Positions 4,113 to 48,735 of a DNA stretch of 64,000 bases are shown here, in pieces; positions within the stretch are counted from its first letter, which is position 1, and the number at the start of each line of letters is the position of its first letter. Location: positions 2,865,773-2,929,772 of the forward strand of contig NZ_LR594487.1 in the NCBI RefSeq assembly GCF_901686465.1, written 5' to 3'. The translations under genes and the position numbers were made by a program. The DNA is from Halorubrum sp. DM2 (lineage in GTDB: Archaea; Halobacteriota; Halobacteria; Halobacteriales; Haloferacaceae). The notes under the pieces were generated by a model. That model saw nothing but the letters and a program-made list of their open reading frames with translations. It was not told where the DNA came from and did not search any database.

Positions 4113-6242
4113 GTGAACGACGGGTCATCTGACGGACGTATCGGGTTCGAAGTCGACGGGCGGACGCTGGGCGTCCGCGACGTCATCGAGGGGACGCGGC
4201 TCGACCTGCTGGCGGACCACGAGCCGGAGCTCTCGCCGGCGATGCCGGAACTGTTTCCGCTTCCGGTCGATCGGGCCGTCAGCTTCGAGGCGAAGTCGAT
4301 CTCGGTCGCGGAGTACTCGACGGTCAACGTCCGGCGCGCGAACGGCGACTTCCTCGCGCAGCTCGACGAGTCCGCGGAGTTCCCGCGCGGCGACTACTGC
4401 GTCGAGATCAGCGGCGTGACGAAGGTCCTCCTGCGAGTCGAGGACGCGGAGATAACGGCGACCGGAATGGGCGGGCCGGAGCCCGTCGAACTCACCTTCG
4501 ACCGGCCGACGACGGTGACGGTCGGCGGACGGTCGTTCCACACGCGACCGGAGGCCACGGTCACGGTCCCGGACGACCCGGCCGCGTTGACGGAGGCGGT
4601 ATCGGTGCTCGGGTCGTCGATACAGGAGTTCTCGCCGGAGCGGTCGTGGCCGACGCTCCGGAGATACCCGCCGCGGATCGAGCGGGGTGATGAACTCGAC
4701 ATCCCTAGCCCGCTGACCGTTCCGGACACGGGCGTCGAGGTCGTGGTTCGGCCGACGTACGCCGACGTGTACCGGCTCTCGACGCTGTCGTACTACCTCG
4801 GCGCGCGGATGACCGTCGGGGACGCGCCGGCGATCCGGCTCGACAACGGCTACGAGGAGCGGCTTCCCGCGGAGGGACGCGCGCTCGAACGCCGGGTCGA
4901 GGAGCTGTTCCGGACGTGGTTCTTCCTCGACACGCTCGCGCGGACTGAGGGGTACGTCCCGTCGGACCGGTACGAGTACGAGCAGGTCGGCGCGGAGCTC
5001 CCCTTCTACCCGCCGAACCTCGCGGACAGTTCGATGAGCGAGCACCTCATGGAGTACTTGGAGGTGGATCCCGAGACCGTCGCGCCGTACGCGCCTGCGT
5101 GGTCGACCGAGGCAGTCCTGCGGCCGGCACCCGAGGCGGCCGAGCTGCTCCCGCACCTCGCGCACGTCCTCGCGCCGGTGCGGGTCCGCGGAGCGGCCGA
5201 GCCGTCCGCTCCCGACGCTCCCATTGCGCTCGCGAGGTCACAGCGGATCGACCTCGAATCGCCGACGCCGAAGCCGAAGAGCGATCCGGTGCCGACCCCC
5301 GACGCGGATCCGATTCCTCCGGGGGCGTCCGTACTCACGCCGGTTTCGTACGAGAACTATTTACGCCGCAGTGTGTCCTCCCACGGAGACCTCTGCGCGG
5401 TCTTCCTCTTTAACTCCGACGAGCGGGCAGAGGCGTTCAGAAACGCCTACACCGACCCCGAGACACCAGACGGAATCGAGAAGTGGAGGGTCTTATCTGC
5501 TCCAAGTTCCGACGCCGTTTCTGACGTTTTCTCCGATTCCTCGACGGATATCGTCTACTGCGGTCTCCCGATCGATGACGGTGCGGTCGTCTCGGGGGAC
5601 GGTCGTGTCGAAATCAGCTCGCTCGGCGCGTCGAACGAGCCGAACTCTCCGGCCGTCGTAGTCCTCGAAGGAACGAGAGATGTCAAGACTGGCCTCGGCT
5701 TAATCAACGCAGGCGCTCTCGGAACGGTGCTGTTCGACGGCAACCTTCCTTCGGAGTCCGTTCGACAGTTGATCGGGCTGCTGTCGGCAGGCGGTTCCAT
5801 TTCCGTCGCGACGGCACTCGCGATTCGTGATGAAGGCACACAGGCACGATTCATTGGTGATCCGGGGACGCTCGCCTCGAAGAACCGCGGATTTCCGTTA
5901 CAGCTTCTTTCGCTTCGTTCCCTCGATACGAATTCGTTGGCGGTCGATCGGTGGTCGTTTACTTCCATCAAAGCGATGCTCGGAATGGAGTGTTCGACGA
6001 TTGTTGACTCCCTTGACAGACGGAGACGACTCGCTGGAACCCGTCACAGAGAGCCAGAGCCGATTGCTGTTTCCGACGCTCTGAACATACACTCCGGAAG
6101 CGAAGTTCAAATCTGTCTCAACGGTGATCTCGTCCTCAAAAGCGACGACCTCACCGCCGAAGACATCGAGGAATCCGCGACAAAGGCGCTCTCGGAGGTA
6201 TCCGAGACCGAGTCGCACGCCGACTCGCAGTGTCGGAATTGA
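4113..6242 (+). CDS. Large haloarchaeal protein with degenerate CHAT-like C-terminal domain
   Basis: 709 residues from a GTG start. The N-terminal 350 residues show no fold I recognise; they contain paired Tyr/Arg-rich stretches (about 208-240, STLSYYLGARMTVG) that look like a conserved haloarchaeal module. A Pro/Asp-rich linker at about 375-405 separates them from a C-terminal region (about 420-600) laid out like a CHAT (caspase-like) domain: STDIVYCGLPI where CHAT has a strand ending in the His motif, AVVVLEGTRD where CHAT has the LSAC motif, then GLGLINAGALGTVLF, then SAGGSISVATALA. The expected catalytic His and Cys are both absent, so a peptidase function is unlikely if the alignment is right. 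GC content falls visibly after about 5340. Function unknown. Confidence 0.6.
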   Translation: MNDGSSDGRIGFEVDGRTLGVRDVIEGTRLDLLADHEPELSPAMPELFPLPVDRAVSFEAKSISVAEYSTVNVRRANGDFLAQLDESAEFPRGDYCVEISGVTKVLLRVEDAEITATGMGGPEPVELTFDRPTTVTVGGRSFHTRPEATVTVPDDPAALTEAVSVLGSSIQEFSPERSWPTLRRYPPRIERGDELDIPSPLTVPDTGVEVVVRPTYADVYRLSTLSYYLGARMTVGDAPAIRLDNGYEERLPAEGRALERRVEELFRTWFFLDTLARTEGYVPSDRYEYEQVGAELPFYPPNLADSSMSEHLMEYLEVDPETVAPYAPAWSTEAVLRPAPEAAELLPHLAHVLAPVRVRGAAEPSAPDAPIALARSQRIDLESPTPKPKSDPVPTPDADPIPPGASVLTPVSYENYLRRSVSSHGDLCAVFLFNSDERAEAFRNAYTDPETPDGIEKWRVLSAPSSDAVSDVFSDSSTDIVYCGLPIDDGAVVSGDGRVEISSLGASNEPNSPAVVVLEGTRDVKTGLGLINAGALGTVLFDGNLPSESVRQLIGLLSAGGSISVATALAIRDEGTQARFIGDPGTLASKNRGFPLQLLSLRSLDTNSLAVDRWSFTSIKAMLGMECSTIVDSLDRRRRLAGTRHREPEPIAVSDALNIHSGSEVQICLNGDLVLKSDDLTAEDIEESATKALSEVSETESHADSQCRN

Positions 6243-6320
6243 GCCGCGGAGCGCCGCCGGCGCGACCGACGCCCCTCGCCCGCCGACATGTTTTATTTCC
6301 CCGACGACGAACCGCCGCGT

Positions 6321-6470
6321 ATGCCTCAGGTCCACCTCGACGAGGAGACGGTCGAGCGGCTCGACGCGCTCCGCGTCGACGACGAGGAGTACGACGAGAT
6401 CGTCAGCGAACTCATCGGCATCTACGAGGCGGAGGAGCTCGCGCTGTTCCGCGGCAGCGACATCGAGTGA
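6321..6470 (+). CDS. Small haloarchaeal protein, antitoxin-like
   Basis: 49 residues, MPQVHLDEETVERLDALRVD..., acidic and mostly helical. It resembles small haloarchaeal proteins (DUF7557-type by memory) that look like VapB or ribbon-helix-helix antitoxins. The ATG at 6321 is chosen over the in-frame ATG at 6288 because a TTTTATTT box at about 6291-6298 sits 25-30 bases before it, as expected for a leaderless transcript. No toxin gene is adjacent; the neighbours are the CHAT-like gene upstream and a convergent DUF5799 gene. Confidence 0.72.
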   Translation: MPQVHLDEETVERLDALRVDDEEYDEIVSELIGIYEAEELALFRGSDIE

Positions 6471-6510
6471 CAGAACGCGTCCTCGGGTCGGCCGAGCGCC
6501 GGTCGCGGCC

Positions 6511-6969
6511 TCACTCCTGATATGCGACGCGGACCTGCTCCCACTTGCCGACCTCCTCTAGGTGTGCCTGTAGCTCGTCGGCGTACTCCTGTACGAGCCG
6601 CTCTGCGGCCTCCAGTTCCTCGTCCGAGGCCCCGCCGCTCCCGCCGCCCCCGCCGAGACCGAGCGCGCCCTTGATCGAGTCGACGAGGCCGCCGCCCGAA
6701 TTGCCGCCCTCCGCGCCGCCGGGAGCGCCGCCCATCCCCGCCATCTGCGACCGGAGGTTCTCCAGTTCGGGCATGATTGCGGGGAGACTCGACGTGTCCG
6801 CCACGACGCGAGCGCTCTCCGGGTCGTCGGCGTTCTCGATCTCGAAGTCGGTCGCGGTCATGATCAGTCCCCACTCCTGACTGGAGAAGCGCGACGCCGC
6901 GACGCGCTCGTTGAACTGGTTGTCGACGGTCATCCGCTCGCCGACGATGGCGTCGGTCCACTCGCTCAT
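6511..6969 (-). CDS. DUF5799 family haloarchaeal protein
   Basis: 152 residues. The N-terminal half (FSSQEWGLIMTATDFEIE, then LPAIMPELENLRSQMAGMG) matches the DUF5799 family restricted to Halobacteria. A Gly-rich linker at about 80-115 is followed by an acidic helix (DEELEAAERLVQEYADELQ) that could form a coiled coil. No catalytic motif, signal peptide or membrane segment. Function unknown. Confidence 0.8.
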   Translation of the reverse strand: MSEWTDAIVGERMTVDNQFNERVAASRFSSQEWGLIMTATDFEIENADDPESARVVADTSSLPAIMPELENLRSQMAGMGGAPGGAEGGNSGGGLVDSIKGALGLGGGGGSGGASDEELEAAERLVQEYADELQAHLEEVGKWEQVRVAYQE

Positions 6970-13230: not shown

Positions 13231-14452
13231 ATGACAGACATCACGGAGGCTTCGTCGGACACCCCGGCGGATCGAGTTCTTCCAGGGCACGATAGCTTCT
13301 AACGTCGAAATCGGTCCTGTCAGGATCTTCGACACGACCCTGCGAGACGGAGAACAGTCACCACGTACTTCGTTCAGCTACGACGAGAAACGCCGCATAG
13401 CGGCGACGCTGGACGACATGAACACCCACGTCATCGAGGCGGGGTTCCCGGTCAACTCGGATGCGGAGTTCGAGGCCGTCAGCGACATCGCCGCCGCGAC
13501 GGACACCACCGTCTGCGGGCTGGCCCGCGTCGTCGACGGCGACATCGAGGCCGCCATCGACTCCGGCGTCGAAATGGTCCACGTGTTCGTCTCCACCAGC
13601 GACGTTCAGCTGGAGGATTCGATGCACGCGACCCGCGAGGAGGCGAAAGGGCGCGCGGTCGACGCCGTCGAGCAGGTCAAAGACGCCGGCGTCGAGTGTA
13701 TGTTCTCGCCGATGGACGCGACCCGGACGGACCCGGACTACCTGATCGACATCGTCGAGGCGGTCAGCGACGCGGGCACCGACTGGATCAACATTCCCGA
13801 CACCTGCGGCGTCGGGATGCCGACCAGCTTCGGGCAGACCGTGGAGGCCGTCGTCGAGGCGACAGACGCCCGCGTCGACGTCCACACCCACGACGACTTC
13901 GGGATGGCCGCGGCCAACGCCGTCATGGGCTTCGAGAACGGCGCGGAGCAGGCGCAGGTGTCGGTCAACGGGATCGGCGAGCGCGCCGGCAACGCCGCCT
14001 ACGAGGAGGTCGTGATGGCCGTCGAGTCGGTGTACGGCGTCGACACCGGCATCGACACGACCCAGATCACCAAGCTGGCACGGATCGTCGAGGAGGCCTC
14101 GGACATCCCGGTGCCGGCGAACAAGCCCGTCACCGGACGGAACGCGTTCGCCCACGAGTCGGGCATCCACGCCGCCGGCGTCATCGAGAACAGCGACACG
14201 TTCGAGACCGGCGTGATGACCCCGGAGATGGTCGGGGCCGAACGCGAGTTCGTGCTGGGCAAACACACCGGCACCCACAGCGTGCGCAAGCACCTGGTGG
14301 AGGCCGGCTTCGACCCGACGGACGGCGAGGTCCGGAAGATTACGAAGCGGGTCAAGGAGTACGGTGCCGGCAAGCGGCGGGTGACGGCCGGCGACGTCGA
14401 GCGGTTCGCCGAGGAGGCGGACGTGACGCGCGAGGAGGAGGTCCGGGTCTGA
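13231..14452 (+). pseudogene. leuA: 2-Isopropylmalate / citramalate synthase with an apparent frameshift near the start
   Basis: First enzyme of the leucine branch: acetyl-CoA condenses with 2-oxoisovalerate (or pyruvate in the citramalate version). Reading from the promoter-proximal ATG gives MTDITEASSDTPADRV and then a stop at 13302. The next frame, open from 13235, gives EFFQGTIASN, then RIFDTTLRDGEQ (catalytic Arg and metal-binding Asp), the HTHDD metal-binding motif near 13885 and an intact barrel to the TGA at 14452. That second frame has no ATG, GTG or TTG before 13418, which lies past the active-site motif. So a shift between about 13270 and 13280 is needed to make a working enzyme. 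The protein ends without the C-terminal leucine-binding regulatory domain, as in other short archaeal versions. It heads the branched-chain cluster. Sequencing error, real mutation and recoding are all possible. Confidence 0.85.
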
Positions 14453-40962: not shown

Positions 40963-42534
40963 TTACGCGCCCAGCGTGTCCTCCAACAGCTGGAGCGGGT
41001 GTTCGATCTCGTAGCCGGTGCCGTGTTCCATCTGCATCGCGCAGGTCGGACACTCGGTCATCCCCACGTCGCCCTCGGCGTCCTCCATGTGCTCGAACAT
41101 CTCCTCGCCGATCTCCATCGACTTCTCGTACTTCTCCTCCTTCCAACCGTAGGTGCCGGAGATGCCCGAACAGGAATCGCCGACGTCCTCCACGGTGACG
41201 CCGTCGACGTCGCGGAACGTCTCGACGGCCTGTCGCGCGAGGCCCTGATTCCGGGCGTGACACGGCGCGTGATACGCGAGTTCGCGCTCCTCGTCGAGCC
41301 CGCCGGCCGCGTCGAGTTCCCCGTCGAGATCCTCGTGGATGCGGAGGTACTCCATCGCCTCGAAGGTGTGTTCCGCCAGGTCCTCGATCCCGTGGAGGTC
41401 GAACAGCTCGGGGTACTCCTGTCGCAACGACATCGAACAGGAGGTACAGGAGGCGATCACGTCCGCGCCCTCGCCGATTGCCTCGACGAGGTTCTCGACG
41501 TTCGTCTCGGCGTGCCGTCGGGCGTCGTCCAGCATGCCGTTCGCGAACATCGGCGTCCCCGAACACTTCTGGGGCGGGACCATCACCTCGTAGCCGAAGT
41601 GTTCGTACACGCGGACCATGGCCTTGCCGACCTCGGGGGTGTTGTAGTTGGAGTAACAGCCGTGGAAGTAGGCCACCCGCTTGTCCGGGTTCTCCACGTT
41701 CGCGCCGCCGCGCGCCTTCCACCACTCGCGGAACGTCTCCGTCGCGAACTCGGGGAAGTCGCGCTCCTTCGGGATGCCCATCACCTTCTCTAAGGCCCAC
41801 CGCGCCGGCCCGAAGTTCATCGCGAACGAGGCCGTCCGCGGGAACATGCTCGCGAGCCGCGCCGACGTGCGGTAGTTCGCCAGCAGGCGGTTCCGGACGT
41901 ACTCGACCGAGAGCTTCTCCATCTGGCGCTCGACGAACTGCCCGCGCGCCTCGTTGTGCATCTGCGAGAGCGGCACCGAGGACGGACAGGCGTCGTCACA
42001 GCGCATACAGTTCGAACACGACGTGATCGATTCGTCGATGTCGTGGTCATCCTTCCGCTTGAGCCGCCACTGCTCCGGTCCCTGGAACTTCGGGCCGGGG
42101 AACTCGTCGTCGACCTCCGCGACCGGACAGGAGGTGTCACAGCTCGTACACTTGTAACAGGAGTCGGCCCCCTCGCGGAGGTCGAGGTCGCCGCCGGGGA
42201 ACACGTCGACCGGGTCGTACGCGTCCGGGTCGAGCTCCGTCGAGTCGGTCCCGCCGGTCGCGCTCTCGGTCCCGCCCGCGGCGCTCTCGACGCCGCCGTC
42301 GGTGGCGGCGCGGGTCGCGGTGTCGTCCGCGCCCGCCTCCGCGTCGCGTGCCCCGATCGCGTCGTCCTCCGGGATCTCCCCGTCGTCCGGGACGAAGATC
42401 GACGGCTGCTCGTCGCGGCCGGCCTCCGGGACGCCGGGACTCGGCGCGTCGGGGCCGTTCGACCCCTCGCGTCCGCCGCGATCGTCCTCGCTCGACTCCT
42501 CCGCGCTCCCGTCGTCGTCCGTGTGTCGTGTCAT
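40963..42534 (-). CDS. glpC: Anaerobic-type glycerol-3-phosphate dehydrogenase subunit C
   Basis: 523 residues. An acidic, low-complexity N-terminus of about 130 residues is followed by two [4Fe-4S] ferredoxin clusters, CYKCTSCDTSCPV (about 137) and CSNCMRCDDACPSS (about 183), then two CCG (HdrD-like) halves: GCYSNYNTPEVG and PQKCSG; later CHARNQG and SCSGISGTYG. It passes electrons from GlpAB to the quinone pool. It starts in a four-base overlap with the glpB stop and is last in glpABC. Confidence 0.94.
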   Translation of the reverse strand: MTRHTDDDGSAEESSEDDRGGREGSNGPDAPSPGVPEAGRDEQPSIFVPDDGEIPEDDAIGARDAEAGADDTATRAATDGGVESAAGGTESATGGTDSTELDPDAYDPVDVFPGGDLDLREGADSCYKCTSCDTSCPVAEVDDEFPGPKFQGPEQWRLKRKDDHDIDESITSCSNCMRCDDACPSSVPLSQMHNEARGQFVERQMEKLSVEYVRNRLLANYRTSARLASMFPRTASFAMNFGPARWALEKVMGIPKERDFPEFATETFREWWKARGGANVENPDKRVAYFHGCYSNYNTPEVGKAMVRVYEHFGYEVMVPPQKCSGTPMFANGMLDDARRHAETNVENLVEAIGEGADVIASCTSCSMSLRQEYPELFDLHGIEDLAEHTFEAMEYLRIHEDLDGELDAAGGLDEERELAYHAPCHARNQGLARQAVETFRDVDGVTVEDVGDSCSGISGTYGWKEEKYEKSMEIGEEMFEHMEDAEGDVGMTECPTCAMQMEHGTGYEIEHPLQLLEDTLGA

Positions 42535-43910
42535 TGGGTCGCCTCCGTCGCCGCCTGCCGCCCGGCCACGATGCCGGTCGCGAGCGATACCCCGCTCGCG
42601 GACTTCTCTCTCGCCGCGTCCGCGCCGCCGACGACGCCGCCGGCCGCGAACACGTTCTCGTACTGTGCTTCGCCGTTACCGTCCACGGGCCGCATCCGCC
42701 CGTCGGGTCGCACCCCGAACCGCGCGTACGGCTGATCGCCGAACGCGTCGTCGACAAACCACTCGTACCGGTCGTCGGGCTGGTCGACGTGGCAGTCGAA
42801 GACGGGCTCGCGGACCCCCTCGCGGTCGGAGTCGAGCCCCTTCCCGACGAGCCCGCCGGTCGCCAGCACGAACGCGTCGGCACCGTACGGTGCCGTCCGT
42901 CCCTTCCGGTCGACCGCGACCGTCTCCACGCGGCCGGCGGCGGCGGACTCGACGCCGACCACGGGGTTGCCGGTCTCGAACCGGACGCCCTCGGCGTCGA
43001 GCGCGTCGAAGAGGCGGTCCTCCAGGCGGAGTCCGGGGAGGCTCGGCGGTCCCGTCGGGATCTCGAACACGTCCGCACCGAGCCGCTCCGCGAGTTCGGC
43101 GCGGACCTCGTCGCCGCGGTCGTCGCCGAGGAACGCCGGGAAGCCGACGCGCTCGACGCGGTCGACGCCGCCCGACCCGTCGACCACGTCGTGGAGGTGC
43201 GGCGCGACCGCCTTCGCGAGCGCCTCGCGGGCGGGGACGCCGTCGATCGCCTCGTCGTGGTCGAGCGCCTTCGCGACCCGGGTGATCTTCGCGTCGGCCC
43301 GGAACGCCTCCGCGAACTCCACCTCCGCGCCGGCGACGTCGAACGGCACCCCGGCCGCCTCCAGCCGCCCCGCGAAGGCCCGCGCGTCGTACTCCGTCAG
43401 CGACCGGAAGCCGACGACGAGCATCGGTCGGTCGTCGCTCGCGAGGCCGGCCTCGGCCGCCGCCGGGTACCGCGCGGTCGGCTTCACGGCCCCGCCGAAC
43501 GTCGGCACCAAGGCGTTGCGGTCGGTGTGGCCGCCGCGGTACGCGTCGCCCGCGAGGTCGTCGAAGAGGTCGAGCCCCTCGCGGAGCGCGTCGCTCCCCG
43601 CGATCCGGTACGGGTGCGACTCGGGAAGCCGATCGATCGCCTCGAACGGGTCCGCGAGCGGTCCCTCCGGGTCCGGCCACTCGTCGCGGTCGAGTTCGCG
43701 GCCCGCGGTCGGCGGCCCGTCCCGGAGCGGCTTCGCCGGCTCCGTCGCCGGGACGTAGCCGAGCGCGTCGATCAGCCCGGAGGCCTGCCGTAGAGTGCTG
43801 GCCTTATGCGAGACGAGCCGCACGTCAGCGCCCTCGCGGGCGGCCGAGACCGCCGCGGTCACCGCGGCGAGACCGCCCCCGATCACGAGGACGTCGCTGT
43901 TTATCGCCAT
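42531..43910 (-). CDS. glpB: Anaerobic-type glycerol-3-phosphate dehydrogenase subunit B
   Basis: 459 residues. FAD/NAD-binding VLVIGGGLAAVTAAVSAARE at the N-terminus, then YGADAFVLATGGLVGKGL and NVFAAGGVVGGADAAREKSA near the C-terminus, the GlpB flavoprotein pattern. The ATG at 43910 overlaps the glpA stop by one base; the open frame further upstream is a shadow of glpA. It sits between GlpA and the Fe-S subunit GlpC. Confidence 0.92.
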   Translation of the reverse strand: MAINSDVLVIGGGLAAVTAAVSAAREGADVRLVSHKASTLRQASGLIDALGYVPATEPAKPLRDGPPTAGRELDRDEWPDPEGPLADPFEAIDRLPESHPYRIAGSDALREGLDLFDDLAGDAYRGGHTDRNALVPTFGGAVKPTARYPAAAEAGLASDDRPMLVVGFRSLTEYDARAFAGRLEAAGVPFDVAGAEVEFAEAFRADAKITRVAKALDHDEAIDGVPAREALAKAVAPHLHDVVDGSGGVDRVERVGFPAFLGDDRGDEVRAELAERLGADVFEIPTGPPSLPGLRLEDRLFDALDAEGVRFETGNPVVGVESAAAGRVETVAVDRKGRTAPYGADAFVLATGGLVGKGLDSDREGVREPVFDCHVDQPDDRYEWFVDDAFGDQPYARFGVRPDGRMRPVDGNGEAQYENVFAAGGVVGGADAAREKSASGVSLATGIVAGRQAATEATQ

Positions 43911-45721
43911 CAGCGACCTCCGTCTGCGGTCGCGTCGTCCGCTGCGCGACCACCGTCGGTGCTCACGTCGTCCGCTGCGCGACCACCGTCGGCCGCCGCG
44001 GTCCCCGCCGATCCGGACTCGTCGCTCCCCGTACCGCCGGCGGCAGGCGACTCGCTCCCAGCGTCGAACGCGTCGAAATCGACCGACTCGTCGAGGTTCG
44101 CCGGGTCGCCGTCGCGGTTCATCGTGGTCGCGTGGAGCAGGTGGTTCAACATCGCCTGCGAGAGCTGCTCGCCCCATAGGGCGTGGCGCTGGCCCTTCCA
44201 GCGCTCCTGATACAGCTCGTCTTCGGCGTCGCGGACCACCGGTTCCGGGTACTCCTGAGCGAGCTCCGACGCGATCCGGTGGGTACAGAAGCCGCCCTGA
44301 CAGTTCCCCATCGAGGCGCGGGTCCGCAGGCGGACCGCGTTGAGGTCGGAGCCGGCCTCGCCGACCGCGTCCTGAACCTCCGCGCGGGTGACGCTCTCGC
44401 AGTTACAGACGATCGGGTTCGGGTCGTACTCGTCGAGTACGTCGTCCGCGCGCGACCCGAGCCGCTGGCCCGAGCGGCGGGCGACGGGGGACCGGAGGCC
44501 GAACTCGTCCATCAGCTCCTCCATCCGCGCGGGACTCTCCGACCCCGGCAACGGAGCGTCGGCGGTGTCGCACTCCGCCTCGTGACCGAGCGTCTCGCAG
44601 ACGTGGTCGGAGATGGACTCGGCCATCATGCGGTAGGTGGTGAGCTTCCCGCCGACGATGGTGGTCATCCCCGGGAGGTCGTCGCGGTCGCCGTGGTCTA
44701 AGAGGAAGTAGTCGCGGGTGATGTCCGTCGGGTCCTCGGTGCCCGTTCCCGGCGGCTCGTAGAGGGGCCTGACGCCCCAGAAGGAGCGGAGCGTCCGGGC
44801 GTCTTCGAGCGCCGGGACCAGCTCCGAGAGCGTCTCGATCATCAGGTCGACCTCCCAGTCCTCCTCGGGGTAGTCCTCGGGGTCATCGACCTCCTCGTCC
44901 GTCGTGCCGAGGATACAGGCGGTCTCGTGGGGGACGATGATGTCGGCGTCGCCCTTCGGCCGACAGCGGTTGACCACGGTGTCGACCTGCCGGGTGTTCA
45001 TCACCGTCATCACGCCCTTCGAGGGCCGGACCTCCACGTCGACGCCGGCCATCTCGCCGACGTTGCCCGCCCACGCGCCGGTCGCGTTGACGACGTGGCG
45101 CGCGCGGATCGCCTCGGTCGTCCCCGGCTCGCGGTGGACCCGCTTGCCCGGACCGGTCTCGTGTTCGATCTCGACGCCGACGACCTCGCCGTCCTCGACG
45201 AGCACGTCCGTCACCGGCGCGTGGGTCTCGATCCGCGCGCCGTGTTCGCGGGCGTCCGCGGCGTTCGACACGCAGAGCCGGAAGGGATCCACCGCGCCGT
45301 CGGGCAGGGCGATGGCCTTCTCGACGTCGCGCGCGAGGTACGGTTCCCGCCGCCGCGCCTCCTCGCCGTCGATCACCTCGACGGGGATGTCGCACGCGCG
45401 ACAGCCCTCCAGTTTCTCTTGGAAGTACTCCTCCGAGTCCTCCGGGCGCTTGACGAACAGCCCGCCCGTCTCCTCGACGCAGTGGGCCGCGATGTCGCGG
45501 AGGACCATGTTCTCCTCGATGCACTCCTCCGCGCTCTTCTGGTCCGAGACCGCGTACCGACCCCCGCTGTGGAGGAGGCCGTGCATCCGCCCGGTCGTTC
45601 CGTGCGTCAGGTTCCCCTTCTCGACGAGGACCGTATCGAGGCCCCGTCGCGCCAGGTCCCTGACGACGCCGCAGCCCGTCGACCCCCCACCGACGACGAC
45701 GACGTCCACTTGTCTGTCCAT
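43910..45721 (-). CDS. glpA: Glycerol-3-phosphate dehydrogenase subunit A
   Basis: 603 residues. It oxidises glycerol-3-phosphate to dihydroxyacetone phosphate. FAD motif [20 protein letters not shown] at residue 6, the GlpA/GlpD pattern [20 protein letters not shown], and a C-terminal BFD-like [2Fe-2S] region CNCES...GNCQGGFC (about 430-470). The last 60 residues are a low-complexity Ala/Asp tail with a repeated DGGRAADD unit. The ATG at 45721 has an AGTAAAG element 25-30 bases upstream. Divergent from glpK. Confidence 0.95.
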
Positions 45722-46101
45722 GGGAGGCCCTTGGACCACGACCACTTTACTTTACCTCCCGAGGCGTCTTGCCCATAACTATCAGAGACATTCAAGTAGT
45801 GTAATCCATGTCTTCGCCGATATTTTTATATACCTCACTTTTTCACTCCCGCTACAGTTCGGATTTTAACAGGAAGATTATTATGGTAGTACATTATGTT
45901 CACGACCGGCGTGGTAGCTTCCGTGAAAATATGTCGCGGCGGGTTCGATACGCCTCGCGGCCGTTCCGAGTCGGCTCCGGACGGGCCTGACTCGGCGGGC
46001 GCGCGGCGCGGCAGCGAACGCGGCACCGGGATCGCCCTCGACGGCGAGCGCGACCCGGTTCCCGCCGCGCGCGGACCAGCGCCACAGGAGGGATCCACAA
46101 C
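45722..46101. promoter_or_regulatory. glpA-glpK divergent regulatory region
   Basis: 380 bases without a credible gene. For glpABC, GTAAAGTAAAG (minus strand, 45744-45756) is the TATA region. For glpK, TTTTTATATACC at 45823-45834 is the strongest TATA in the window and predicts a start near 45860, giving a leader of about 240 bases; an AT-rich run continues to about 45900 with another possible box (GATTATTATGG near 45876). The second half, 45905-46101, is GC-rich with no feature I can name. The ORF at 45808-45990 crosses the promoter and is rejected. Confidence 0.65.
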
Positions 46102-47643
46102 ATGACACAGTACGTCGGTGCGATAGACCAGGGGACGACCGGTACCCGATTCATGGTGTTCGACCACGAGGGCCAGGTCGTCGCGAACGCCTACGAACAG
46201 CACGAACAGATATACCCGAACCCGGGTTGGGTCGAACACGACCCGATCGAGATCTGGGAGAACACACAGCAGGTCGTTCTCGACGGGCTCGCGGACGCGG
46301 GGCTCGAAGCCGAGCAGCTCGACGCGATCGGCATCACGAACCAGCGCGAGACGACCATCGTGTGGGACAAAGACTCCGGGAAGCCGGTCCACAACGCCCT
46401 CGTGTGGCAGGACCGACGGACGACGGACCGCGTCGAAGAGATCCAGGAGGCGGGCAAAGTCGAGGAGATCCGCGAGAAGACGGGACTGGAGTGTGACGCG
46501 TACTTCTCTGCGACCAAGACCGAGTGGATTCTCGACAACGCAGAGCCGCTCAAGATGCAGAGCTCCCGCGGCGGCGACCTCCGTGACCGGGCTCGCGAGG
46601 GCGAGCTCGTCATGGGAACGATCGACGCGTGGCTCATCTACAACCTGACGGGCAACCACATCACGGACGTCACAAACGCCTCCCGGACGATGCTGTACAA
46701 CATCCGGGAGATGGAGTGGGACGACGAACTCCTCGACGAGTTCGACGTGCCGAAGGAGATGGTGCCCGAGGTGCGCCCCTCCTCCGACGAGGACTACTAC
46801 GGCCACACGGACCCCGACGGCTTCCTCGGCGAGGAAGTGCCGGTCGCCGGCGCGCTCGGCGACCAGCAGGCCGCCCTGTTCGGCCAGACCTGCTTCGACG
46901 AGGGCGACGCGAAGAACACCTACGGCACCGGCTCGTTCTACCTGATGAACACGGGCAACGAGGCGGTAAAGTCCGACCACGGACTGCTGACGACGGTCGG
47001 GTTCCAGATGTCCGGCGAGCCGGTCCAATACGCGCTCGAGGGCTCCATTTTCATCACCGGTGCCGCCATCGAGTGGCTCGAAGACGTCGACCTGATCAAC
47101 AACGCGGCCCAGACCGCGGAGCTGGCTCGGTCGGTCGACTCGACCGACGGCGTCTACATGGTCCCGGCGTTCACCGGGCTCGGCGCGCCCCACTGGGACG
47201 GTCGCGCTCGCGGTACCATCGTCGGGATGACCCGCGGCACGAGCAAGGAACACATCGTCCGGGCGACGCTCGAATCGATCGCCTACCAGACCCGCGACAT
47301 CGCCGAGGCGATGGAGGCCGACTCCGGCGTCGAGACGACCAGCCTCCGCGTCGACGGCGGCGCGGTCAAGAACAACTTCCTCTGTCAGCTCCAGTCCGAC
47401 ATCATCCAGACGGACATCGCGCGCCCGGAGGTCGACGAGACCACCGCGCTCGGTAGCGCCTACGCCGCCGGCCTCGCCGTCGGCTACTGGGACACTGTCG
47501 ACGAGCTGCGCGACAACTGGCAGATCGACCGCGAGTTCACCCCTGAGAAGGGCCAAAAAGAGGTCGACAAGCTGTACAGCCGCTGGGACGACGCGGTTGA
47601 CCGCTCCCGAGACTGGGCGCAGGACGACGAGGAGGACGAGTAG
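46102..47643 (+). CDS. glpK: Glycerol kinase
   Basis: 513 residues, FGGY family. ATP-dependent phosphorylation of glycerol to sn-glycerol-3-phosphate, the entry step for GlpABC. N-terminal phosphate-binding YVGAIDQGTTGTRFMVFDHE, ITNQRETTIVWDKDSGKPVH with the glycerol-contacting Arg-Glu, the FGGY signature region GAPHWDGRARGTIVGMTRGT, and LRVDGGAVKNNFLCQLQSDI. Full length. Its stop is followed immediately by the ATG of a membrane protein, so the two are cotranslated. Confidence 0.97.
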   Translation: MTQYVGAIDQGTTGTRFMVFDHEGQVVANAYEQHEQIYPNPGWVEHDPIEIWENTQQVVLDGLADAGLEAEQLDAIGITNQRETTIVWDKDSGKPVHNALVWQDRRTTDRVEEIQEAGKVEEIREKTGLECDAYFSATKTEWILDNAEPLKMQSSRGGDLRDRAREGELVMGTIDAWLIYNLTGNHITDVTNASRTMLYNIREMEWDDELLDEFDVPKEMVPEVRPSSDEDYYGHTDPDGFLGEEVPVAGALGDQQAALFGQTCFDEGDAKNTYGTGSFYLMNTGNEAVKSDHGLLTTVGFQMSGEPVQYALEGSIFITGAAIEWLEDVDLINNAAQTAELARSVDSTDGVYMVPAFTGLGAPHWDGRARGTIVGMTRGTSKEHIVRATLESIAYQTRDIAEAMEADSGVETTSLRVDGGAVKNNFLCQLQSDIIQTDIARPEVDETTALGSAYAAGLAVGYWDTVDELRDNWQIDREFTPEKGQKEVDKLYSRWDDAVDRSRDWAQDDEEDE

Positions 47644-48735
47644 ATGAACGAACTGCTGTTACAGGTTCCGGTCATCGGCATGGAGGTCGAGCAGTTCCTG
47701 CTGCTCTTCATCACCGCGCTGGCGGGCGGGGCGTTCGGTGCCGCGATCGGCGCGCTTCCGGCCTTCATCTTCACCGGGTTCGTCGTGTTCCTCGGTGAGG
47801 GGATCGGCATCCTCCAGCGGCAGATCGGCGCGATCGAGGCGATCCCGGCCGGCGAACTCGCAGCCGGCATCACCGGCGTCATCGGCTTCGGGGCGGTCAC
47901 CGGTCCGCACATCGCGTTCGCGGGCGGCGTGGCCGCCTCGGCGTACGCCGGGAAGAAGTATCCCGACATGAACCCCGCTGACGGCGGGTACCACTTCGGA
48001 AAAGACATCACGTACGCGTTCGGGACGAAGCCGGACATCCTCGCCGTCGGCGCGATATTCGGCGTCATCGGGATGCTGTTGACGCAGGTCGCAAACGGCA
48101 TCTTCCTCAACGTGCTGGAGACGACGCCGCCGACCGACTTCATCGCGGTGTCCGTGTTCGCGACCGCGTTCCTCGCGCGGCCCGTCTTCGGCTACCCGAT
48201 CGTCGGGAAGCCGGCGGGCGACGGACTGCTCGACATGTCTCCGTTCGAGCGCGGTGACATGCACCCGCAGGCCGACGGTGGTCCCGAAGAGCACGCCGGC
48301 CGGCCGGCGACCGAGCCGTGGCTCCCGCACCAGTACAAGTGGTCGGGCGTCACCGTCATCGGGCTCGTCGGCGGCATCCTCGGCGGCTACATCTGGCTAC
48401 AGACGGGGAGCATCTTCCTCGGCTACGCCATCTCCGCCATCAGCCTGCTGTTCCTCAACCTCGGCGTCGAGAAGATTCCGGTGACCCACCACATCACGCT
48501 GCTGGGCGCGGTCGGCGCGGTCACGCTCGAACCCGTCGCGGGCAGCGTCGTCGCGCTACTGGCGGCCGGCCTCTTCGGTGCCGCGAGCGGTCTCATGGGT
48601 GAGGTCACCCAACGGCTGTTCTACTCGCACTCCGGGACCCACGTGGACCCGCCGGCGATGGCCATCGCGATCATGATGCTCGCCGTCTGGCTGCTCAGCA
48701 TCCTCGGCGCGCTACCCAACGCCGGGTACCTCTAA
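47644..48735 (+). CDS. Putative glycerol transporter cotranscribed with glpK
   Basis: 363 residues with about nine or ten hydrophobic segments: QFLLLFITALAGGAFGAAIG, FIFTGFVVFLGEGIGILQRQ, GVIGFGAVTGPHIAFAGGVA, GVTVIGLVGGILGGYIWLQT and others, with a hydrophilic loop at about 195-230. It is not an aquaporin-type GlpF (no NPA motifs) and not a major-facilitator GlpT. In Haloferax a gene in this position (called glpX there, unrelated to bacterial GlpX fructose-bisphosphatase) is proposed to move glycerol. Starts at the base after the glpK stop. The transport role is inference from context. Confidence 0.7.
   Translation: MNELLLQVPVIGMEVEQFLLLFITALAGGAFGAAIGALPAFIFTGFVVFLGEGIGILQRQIGAIEAIPAGELAAGITGVIGFGAVTGPHIAFAGGVAASAYAGKKYPDMNPADGGYHFGKDITYAFGTKPDILAVGAIFGVIGMLLTQVANGIFLNVLETTPPTDFIAVSVFATAFLARPVFGYPIVGKPAGDGLLDMSPFERGDMHPQADGGPEEHAGRPATEPWLPHQYKWSGVTVIGLVGGILGGYIWLQTGSIFLGYAISAISLLFLNLGVEKIPVTHHITLLGAVGAVTLEPVAGSVVALLAAGLFGAASGLMGEVTQRLFYSHSGTHVDPPAMAIAIMMLAVWLLSILGALPNAGYL

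Follow-up and report, generated by a model that had tools for sequence, protein, structure and literature searches.

A role in glycerol uptake for membrane proteins encoded beside glpK is already known as a prediction made in 2011, not as a demonstrated function. In its available portions, that ten-genome study predicted a glpK-adjacent 'new family of glycerol transporters' of the rrnAC0550 type, whose bacterial relatives lie close to genes for glycerol or diols, and noted one haloarchaeon in which a MIP gene is adjacent to glycerol kinase (PMC3102087). The Haloquadratum gene HQ1732A is transcribed polycistronically with its neighbour glpK, and it was suggested to take part in the metabolism or uptake of glycerol in the part of PMC5496347 accessible to us. 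Glycerol uptake was likewise suggested for a gene beside glpK in the corresponding part of PMC9684190, where a PTS-type domain is cited. No experiment on the gene was found in the accessible portions of the open-access literature. In Haloferax papers the gene after glpK is reportedly termed a putative facilitator. The locus tag of glpK itself is HVO_1542 in PMC3863723 and hvo_1541 in two other papers, as far as their available text goes, a slip to watch when ordering mutants.

The window analyzed here is a stretch of 64,000 nucleotides from Halorubrum sp. DM2. On its forward strand, glpK (glycerol kinase, 46102..47643; TIGR01311, E = 2.4e-217, over the cut-off) ends with a TAG at 47641-47643, and the ATG of the gene under study (47644..48735, +) follows at 47644, so that it starts at the very base after the glpK stop, as the earlier note had described. 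The reverse strand carries glpA (43910..45745; glycerol-3-phosphate dehydrogenase subunit; TIGR03377, E = 5.3e-223, over the cut-off), which is divergent from glpK, together with the genes for a glpB-like FAD protein (42531..44177; PF00890) and a glpC-like iron-sulphur subunit (40963..42534; PF02754, PF13183). The latter two are named from position and from similarity across loci, and the glpB-like ORF as listed overlaps glpA and has an uncertain start. From its position, we infer that the 363-aa product of the gene under study belongs to the rrnAC0550/HQ1732A family, the members of which are likewise glpK-adjacent, uncharacterized membrane proteins with the same proposed role (PMC3102087, PMC5496347, in the portions available). 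We propose that, within the glpK operon, it likely serves as the facilitator of glycerol uptake, that is, as a predicted functional counterpart of GlpF from an unrelated family.

The ORF is a real coding sequence, as genome records contain 164 loci encoding a relative, and the 80 that we kept show 57-91% best-segment identity; among these 80, Halorubrum provides the closest named relatives, at up to 91% identity. The protein is present as a single copy in its own genome (search at E ≤ 1). Neither Pfam nor NCBIfam yielded a family at E ≤ 10, and no PDB sequence matched, in agreement with the earlier view that the protein bears no recognized transporter signature. The count of ten helices given there was roughly right, although the AlphaFold model (pLDDT 83.4, pTM 0.86) shows nine long helices together with two of half length (residues 71-81 and 259-267). 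The reported lack of aquaporin NPA motifs holds for a conserved NPA pair and for PF00230, both of which are absent, but one NPA tripeptide does occur at residues 110-112 (47971..47979, +), in a weakly predicted loop of the model, and it is unconserved in the alignment.

The adjacency to glpK extends across the family. In 76 of the 80 kept loci, the glpK stop lies at most 60 bp upstream on the same strand. The exceptions comprise two loci that do contain glpK but where the script chose an ORF overlapping the family gene (L049, L078), one that starts 100 bases ahead of the family gene (L071), and one plasmid copy with glpK absent from the locus (L077). On this plasmid, from Haladaptatus halobius (L077/L218), no glycerol gene is annotated within ~9 kb of the family copy, the gene table of the plasmid being incomplete. 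An order-level search detected the family in 213 of 293 genomes, as one high-scoring and one lower group, the latter defined by search scores and pairwise identity rather than by a tree. Twenty loci fetched from among the better-scoring members of the lower group encode proteins with 45-53% identity to the window protein (blastp), and glpK is directly upstream in 17 of them; two others have no glpK in the locus (L096, L110) and one is cut by a contig end (L111). A phylum-wide draw of 392 genomes gave 55 matches, all 55 from the order of the window.

The position after glpK is not reserved for this family. Aquaporins (PF00230) were detected in 28 of the 293 genomes, and one MIP stretch was fetched from each of 20 of these. 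A MIP gene directly follows glpK on the same strand in 12 stretches, and in all 12 slot MIPs the second motif has the NPARD form, which we take to be the glycerol type. Two of the 12 genomes (G103, G172) lack the family, and in the remaining ten it is matched at another place. The genus of these two (g48) shows both states, with the family gene right after glpK in G059, G191, G265, and G286. At one further locus (L161), the MIP gene lies divergently upstream of glpK, and the family gene occupies the slot. Nine genomes of genus group g44 (L160, L162-L169) have glpK followed by a MIP gene with the family protein also encoded in the genome; eight of them show two or three glpK matches, and both kinds of slot may coexist within one such genome. 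At L165 (G156), the glpK beside the MIP gene was matched in three pieces only and looks broken.

A second exchange was observed within the genus of the window. All 19 drawn genomes have the family, 12 with scores like that of the window protein and seven with much lower ones. Four of these seven were fetched, and in all four the slot protein has been swapped for one that is 45.5-48.5% identical over ~325 residues, between flanks with DNA identities of 89-91% (glpK) and 79-80% (the downstream ATPase gene). The slot therefore admits an aquaglyceroporin or one of two family members that are only distantly related, and this is the strongest argument that the window protein does the job of GlpF. 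The glycerol uptake put forward in the earlier note is thus backed by adjacency to glpK, by co-occurrence with it (see below), and by exchange with GlpF-type aquaporins, while transport itself is a prediction. The genome context supports such a role well, and the protein very probably has to do with the entry of glycerol.

Elsewhere in the same genome (L175, C1:477000-496500), two MIP genes are found at locus positions 5921-6685 (−) and 13660-14424 (+). Both encode GlpF-type proteins of about 255 aa with NPARD motifs, and an L-PSP-family gene is close to each. They lie near genes for an ACR3 arsenite transporter (TIGR00832, E = 2e-113) and a molybdopterin oxidoreductase, and they are possibly arsenite rather than glycerol channels. 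Given two GlpF-type MIPs, the facilitator may be redundant for glycerol in this genome.

Half-versus-half profile alignment delineated a first repeat unit at residues 88-180 (47905..48183, +), running from P88-H89 to past D165, and a second at residues 282-350 (48487..48693, +), running from H282-H283 to past D335. The alignment pairs H89 with H283 and D165 with D335. The N- and C-terminal halves scored 38-39, compared with a maximum of 23 for shuffles (100 column shuffles per alignment, two alignments) and 12.6-14.4 for a reversed half. Controls in the same test scored 38 (MIP), 195 (urea transporter), and 16 (Amt); the low value for Amt means that the test can miss an old repeat. The signal is weak in two alignments restricted to the high group (probability 3 and 19) and rests on the wider ones. 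Judged by these profiles, the two halves of the protein are an internal repeat. Conservation was assessed over 106 sequences, comprising the window protein, 80 high-group, 20 lower-group, and five bacterial members. D165, W226, Q230, P279, T281, H282, H283, E320, R324, H333, D335, P336, and P337 are invariant in all 106. H89 is variable, with alanine in 5 of the 20 lower-group sequences.

For the structural comparison, a second model was built from a Haloferax orthologue (pLDDT 81.9, pTM 0.85); the alignments behind the two models are largely the same, so that the models are not independent. Foldseek found no solved structure at E ≤ 0.001 for either. A second-look alignment, covering the top 1000 chains from Foldseek, placed urea transporters at ranks 1-14 for the first model (Z 7.2-7.8) and 1-15 for the second (Z 7.2-8.3), low Z-scores that might reflect a common arrangement only. 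These alignments span 169-213 residues with rmsd 3.7-6.9, and the best Z-scores of 7.8 and 8.3 were obtained over ~200 residues with rmsd 4.6-4.8. Amt/Rh structures occupied ranks 15-29 for the first model (Z 5.2-6.6) and were mixed with unrelated rows for the second. PTS EIIC and MIP structures are absent from the 50 rows shown per table, which excludes nothing. The structure prediction suggested in the earlier note as a check thus ranks urea transporters first for two models, but weakly, with no Foldseek E-value below 0.001. We regard it as a tentative possibility that the family represents an independent glycerol channel architecture, in which a duplicated pore with a fold related to urea and ammonium channels, though not detectably so in sequence, shares its slot with aquaglyceroporins and is replaced by those or by its own distant relatives.

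Judging from the exchange with MIP genes in the slot, from the repeat within the protein, and from the ranking of solved structures, any flux through the proposed facilitator is probably passive and channel-like. The two repeated halves would form one pore on a pseudo-twofold axis, each half contributing a half-length helix (71-81; 259-267) ahead of a strongly conserved segment (GFGAVTGPH; IPVTHHI). Small neutral polyols would pass down their gradient, namely glycerol and, in bacteria, perhaps 1,3-propanediol-type diols, and GlpK would trap the glycerol as glycerol-3-phosphate. Candidate pore or gate residues are D165, Q230, T281, H282, H283, E320, R324, H333, and D335. The substrate, the direction, the choice of channel over carrier, and the pore-lining residues are what we infer from these comparisons.

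The conserved residues also fit a different mechanism, in which the protein would be a secondary-active carrier of glycerol (or of dihydroxyacetone or another polyol), driven by protons or sodium and coupled via its invariant charged residues. Invariance of D165, E320, R324, H282, H283, H333, and D335 across 106 sequences is unusual for a simple pore for a neutral solute, internal repeats occur in carriers too, and the best Foldseek rows by E-value include MFS carriers. However, GlpF-type MIP channels, which are passive, can take its place in the slot. Moreover, the query-normalized Foldseek TM-scores in the rows shown are at most 0.21 for MFS carriers, compared with 0.29-0.32 for urea transporters, the rows of which also have the highest Foldseek probabilities (0.82, 0.77, and 0.69). 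We therefore consider a carrier rather unlikely, though it is the most serious competitor to the passive facilitator.

To return to the genome context, glpK was counted at E ≤ 1e-180 in 242 of the 293 genomes. It is present in 207 of the 213 genomes with the family and in 35 of the 80 others, so that co-occurrence with glpK, which the earlier note proposed to check across Archaea, was recovered at the order level. The corresponding odds ratio of 44 comes from related genomes, some of them incomplete, and because of this relatedness the p-value of the association is not to be taken at face value. Six family genomes gave no glpK match at the cut-off, two of which (G016, G037) are less than 90% complete. 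Among the 35 glpK-positive genomes without the family, a MIP was detected in three, two of these MIPs occupying the slot after glpK, and none was detected in 32. The content of the slot was checked in 32 of the 35 by a mechanical ORF rule (at most four ORFs per locus), which gives an approximate picture; outside this set are G103 and G172, which had been fetched before, and G165, in which the glpK match reaches the contig start. The ORFs after glpK are mostly soluble, and those with at least six hydrophobic segments occur at four loci (L184, L189, L204, L205). Glycerol kinase is therefore often kept with no evident facilitator beside it, whether of the family or a MIP, a less tidy picture than the ten-genome statement of 2011 (PMC3102087, in its available portions).

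Tight coupling to glpK, combined with the existence of 35 glpK genomes without the family, would also be compatible with a membrane anchor or regulator of GlpK or of the GlpABC dehydrogenase that transports nothing; a CoxG-like anchoring partner is described for the glycerol-3-phosphate dehydrogenase of Sulfolobus in the accessible part of PMC11962113. This interpretation appears improbable, as the exchange with an aquaporin points to transport, pores and carriers typically have such a repeated polytopic build, and relatives in Rhodococcus have no glpK among their listed neighbors.

The Rhodococcus proteins were found by tblastn of plasmids, which yielded relatives in Microbacterium, Rubrobacter, and Rhodococcus with 32-35% identity in local alignments. 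The suggestion in the earlier note that this may be the haloarchaea's own uptake system accordingly holds only in part, as relatives lie on actinobacterial plasmids beside glpK or alcohol-oxidation genes. On the Microbacterium plasmid, one copy is followed by glpK and a glycerol-3-phosphate dehydrogenase gene, and a second begins 2 bp after another glpK, upstream of which lie genes for a haloalcohol dehalogenase and an epoxide hydrolase. This second arrangement (L214:3200-7780), in which the epoxide hydrolase and dehalogenase genes, glpK, and the family gene follow one another and are flanked at either end by IS transposase genes, resembles a mobile pathway from chloropropanol to glycerol, through which chlorinated precursors would yield glycerol. 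In Rhodococcus (two records viewed of four matched), genes for an aldehyde dehydrogenase and an NDMA-dependent alcohol dehydrogenase lie upstream, and genes for an enoyl-CoA hydratase, an AMP-binding protein, and an acryloyl-CoA reductase lie downstream; these loci might serve propanediol. The Rubrobacter relative has a DeoR/GlpR regulator on one side and a transketolase on the other. The Microbacterium glpK loci and the Rhodococcus dehydrogenase loci thus place bacterial homologues next to genes for glycerol or, presumably, propanediol, as for the type described in the available text of PMC3102087. No viral relative was confirmed among 600 pattern stretches, and the BFVD structures gave nothing with E ≤ 0.001.

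These bacterial settings bear on whether the protein might instead export or facilitate another small neutral solute (dihydroxyacetone, diols, or urea), with glycerol being secondary. The alcohol and aldehyde dehydrogenases and acryloyl-CoA reductase beside the Rhodococcus copies, the transketolase adjoining the Rubrobacter copy, and the plasmid locus L077 with no glpK nearby would all be in line with such a role. The usual neighbor, in haloarchaea and on the Microbacterium plasmid, is nevertheless glpK, and we consider glycerol as a mere side substrate very improbable.

The proposed facilitator could not be placed in a described family. Profile-profile comparison with urea transporters and Amt, as whole proteins and also as halves, and with MIP and EIIC proteins revealed no link, and the distant-homology search recommended in the earlier note thus returned nothing from these families. 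The protein is therefore filed under none of them. Searches with 32 members gave scattered one- or two-member rows in Pfam (best E = 0.0025, a glycine zipper in one member) and scattered single-member rows in NCBIfam (best E = 0.021). The family profile matched three weak PDB rows (E 0.59-1.4, a cytochrome bc1 subunit), which we took as chance, and no MFS Pfam family (GlpT) matched at E ≤ 10.

With GlpF, the protein shares the slot after glpK (12 of 20 fetched MIP stretches), a two-repeat build, and the proposed job. It differs in length, with 363 aa against ~255 aa for the MIPs of its own genome, and it lacks the NPA pair, any PF00230 match at E ≤ 10, and profile similarity (hhalign probability 0.2-0.3 against six haloarchaeal MIPs). 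Urea transporters (UT/SLC14) provide the top-ranked solved structures for two models, have two internal repeats, and act on a small, neutral, polar substrate. In sequence they are unlike the facilitator: PF03253 was found in 0 of 32 members, and the hhalign probability was 0.2 against 11 bacterial UTs. This comparison set was taken from bacterial plasmid sequences; a phylum search for UTs gave 0 of 294 with 0 of 14 controls detected and so shows no absence. The window protein has GAVTGPH and IPVTHHI in place of the urea-transporter motif LPxxTxPF, and it may function in the manner of a urea-type channel without belonging to that group. Amt/Rh proteins provide the second-ranked structures for the first model and have a conserved histidine pair, as the facilitator does in H282-H283. 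Their Z-scores are lower, however, there is no PF00909 match and no profile similarity (hhalign probability at most 3 against 17 haloarchaeal Amt, one a duplicate piece), and the histidines need not be equivalent. A PTS EIIC-like permease of the fructose type working with GlpK, as suggested for the Haloquadratum glpK neighbor from a PRK10712 domain (PMC9684190, in its available part), is hardly credible, as PTS_EIIC (PF02378) was found in 0 of 32 members and the hhalign probability against three haloarchaeal EIIC was at most 0.2.

Beyond the prediction of 2011, this analysis adds the displacement in the slot after glpK, the exchange of distant relatives there, the repeat within the protein, and a structural lead, albeit a weak one. 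It points to a single candidate gene, which the genetically tractable Haloferax also has, and it names residues for mutagenesis; congeners in which a GlpF-type gene fills the slot offer a natural control. If the facilitator reading is shown to be right, facilitated uptake of glycerol would have at least two separate origins, and an annotation would follow for the glpK-adjacent 'hypothetical proteins' of haloarchaea and Actinobacteria.
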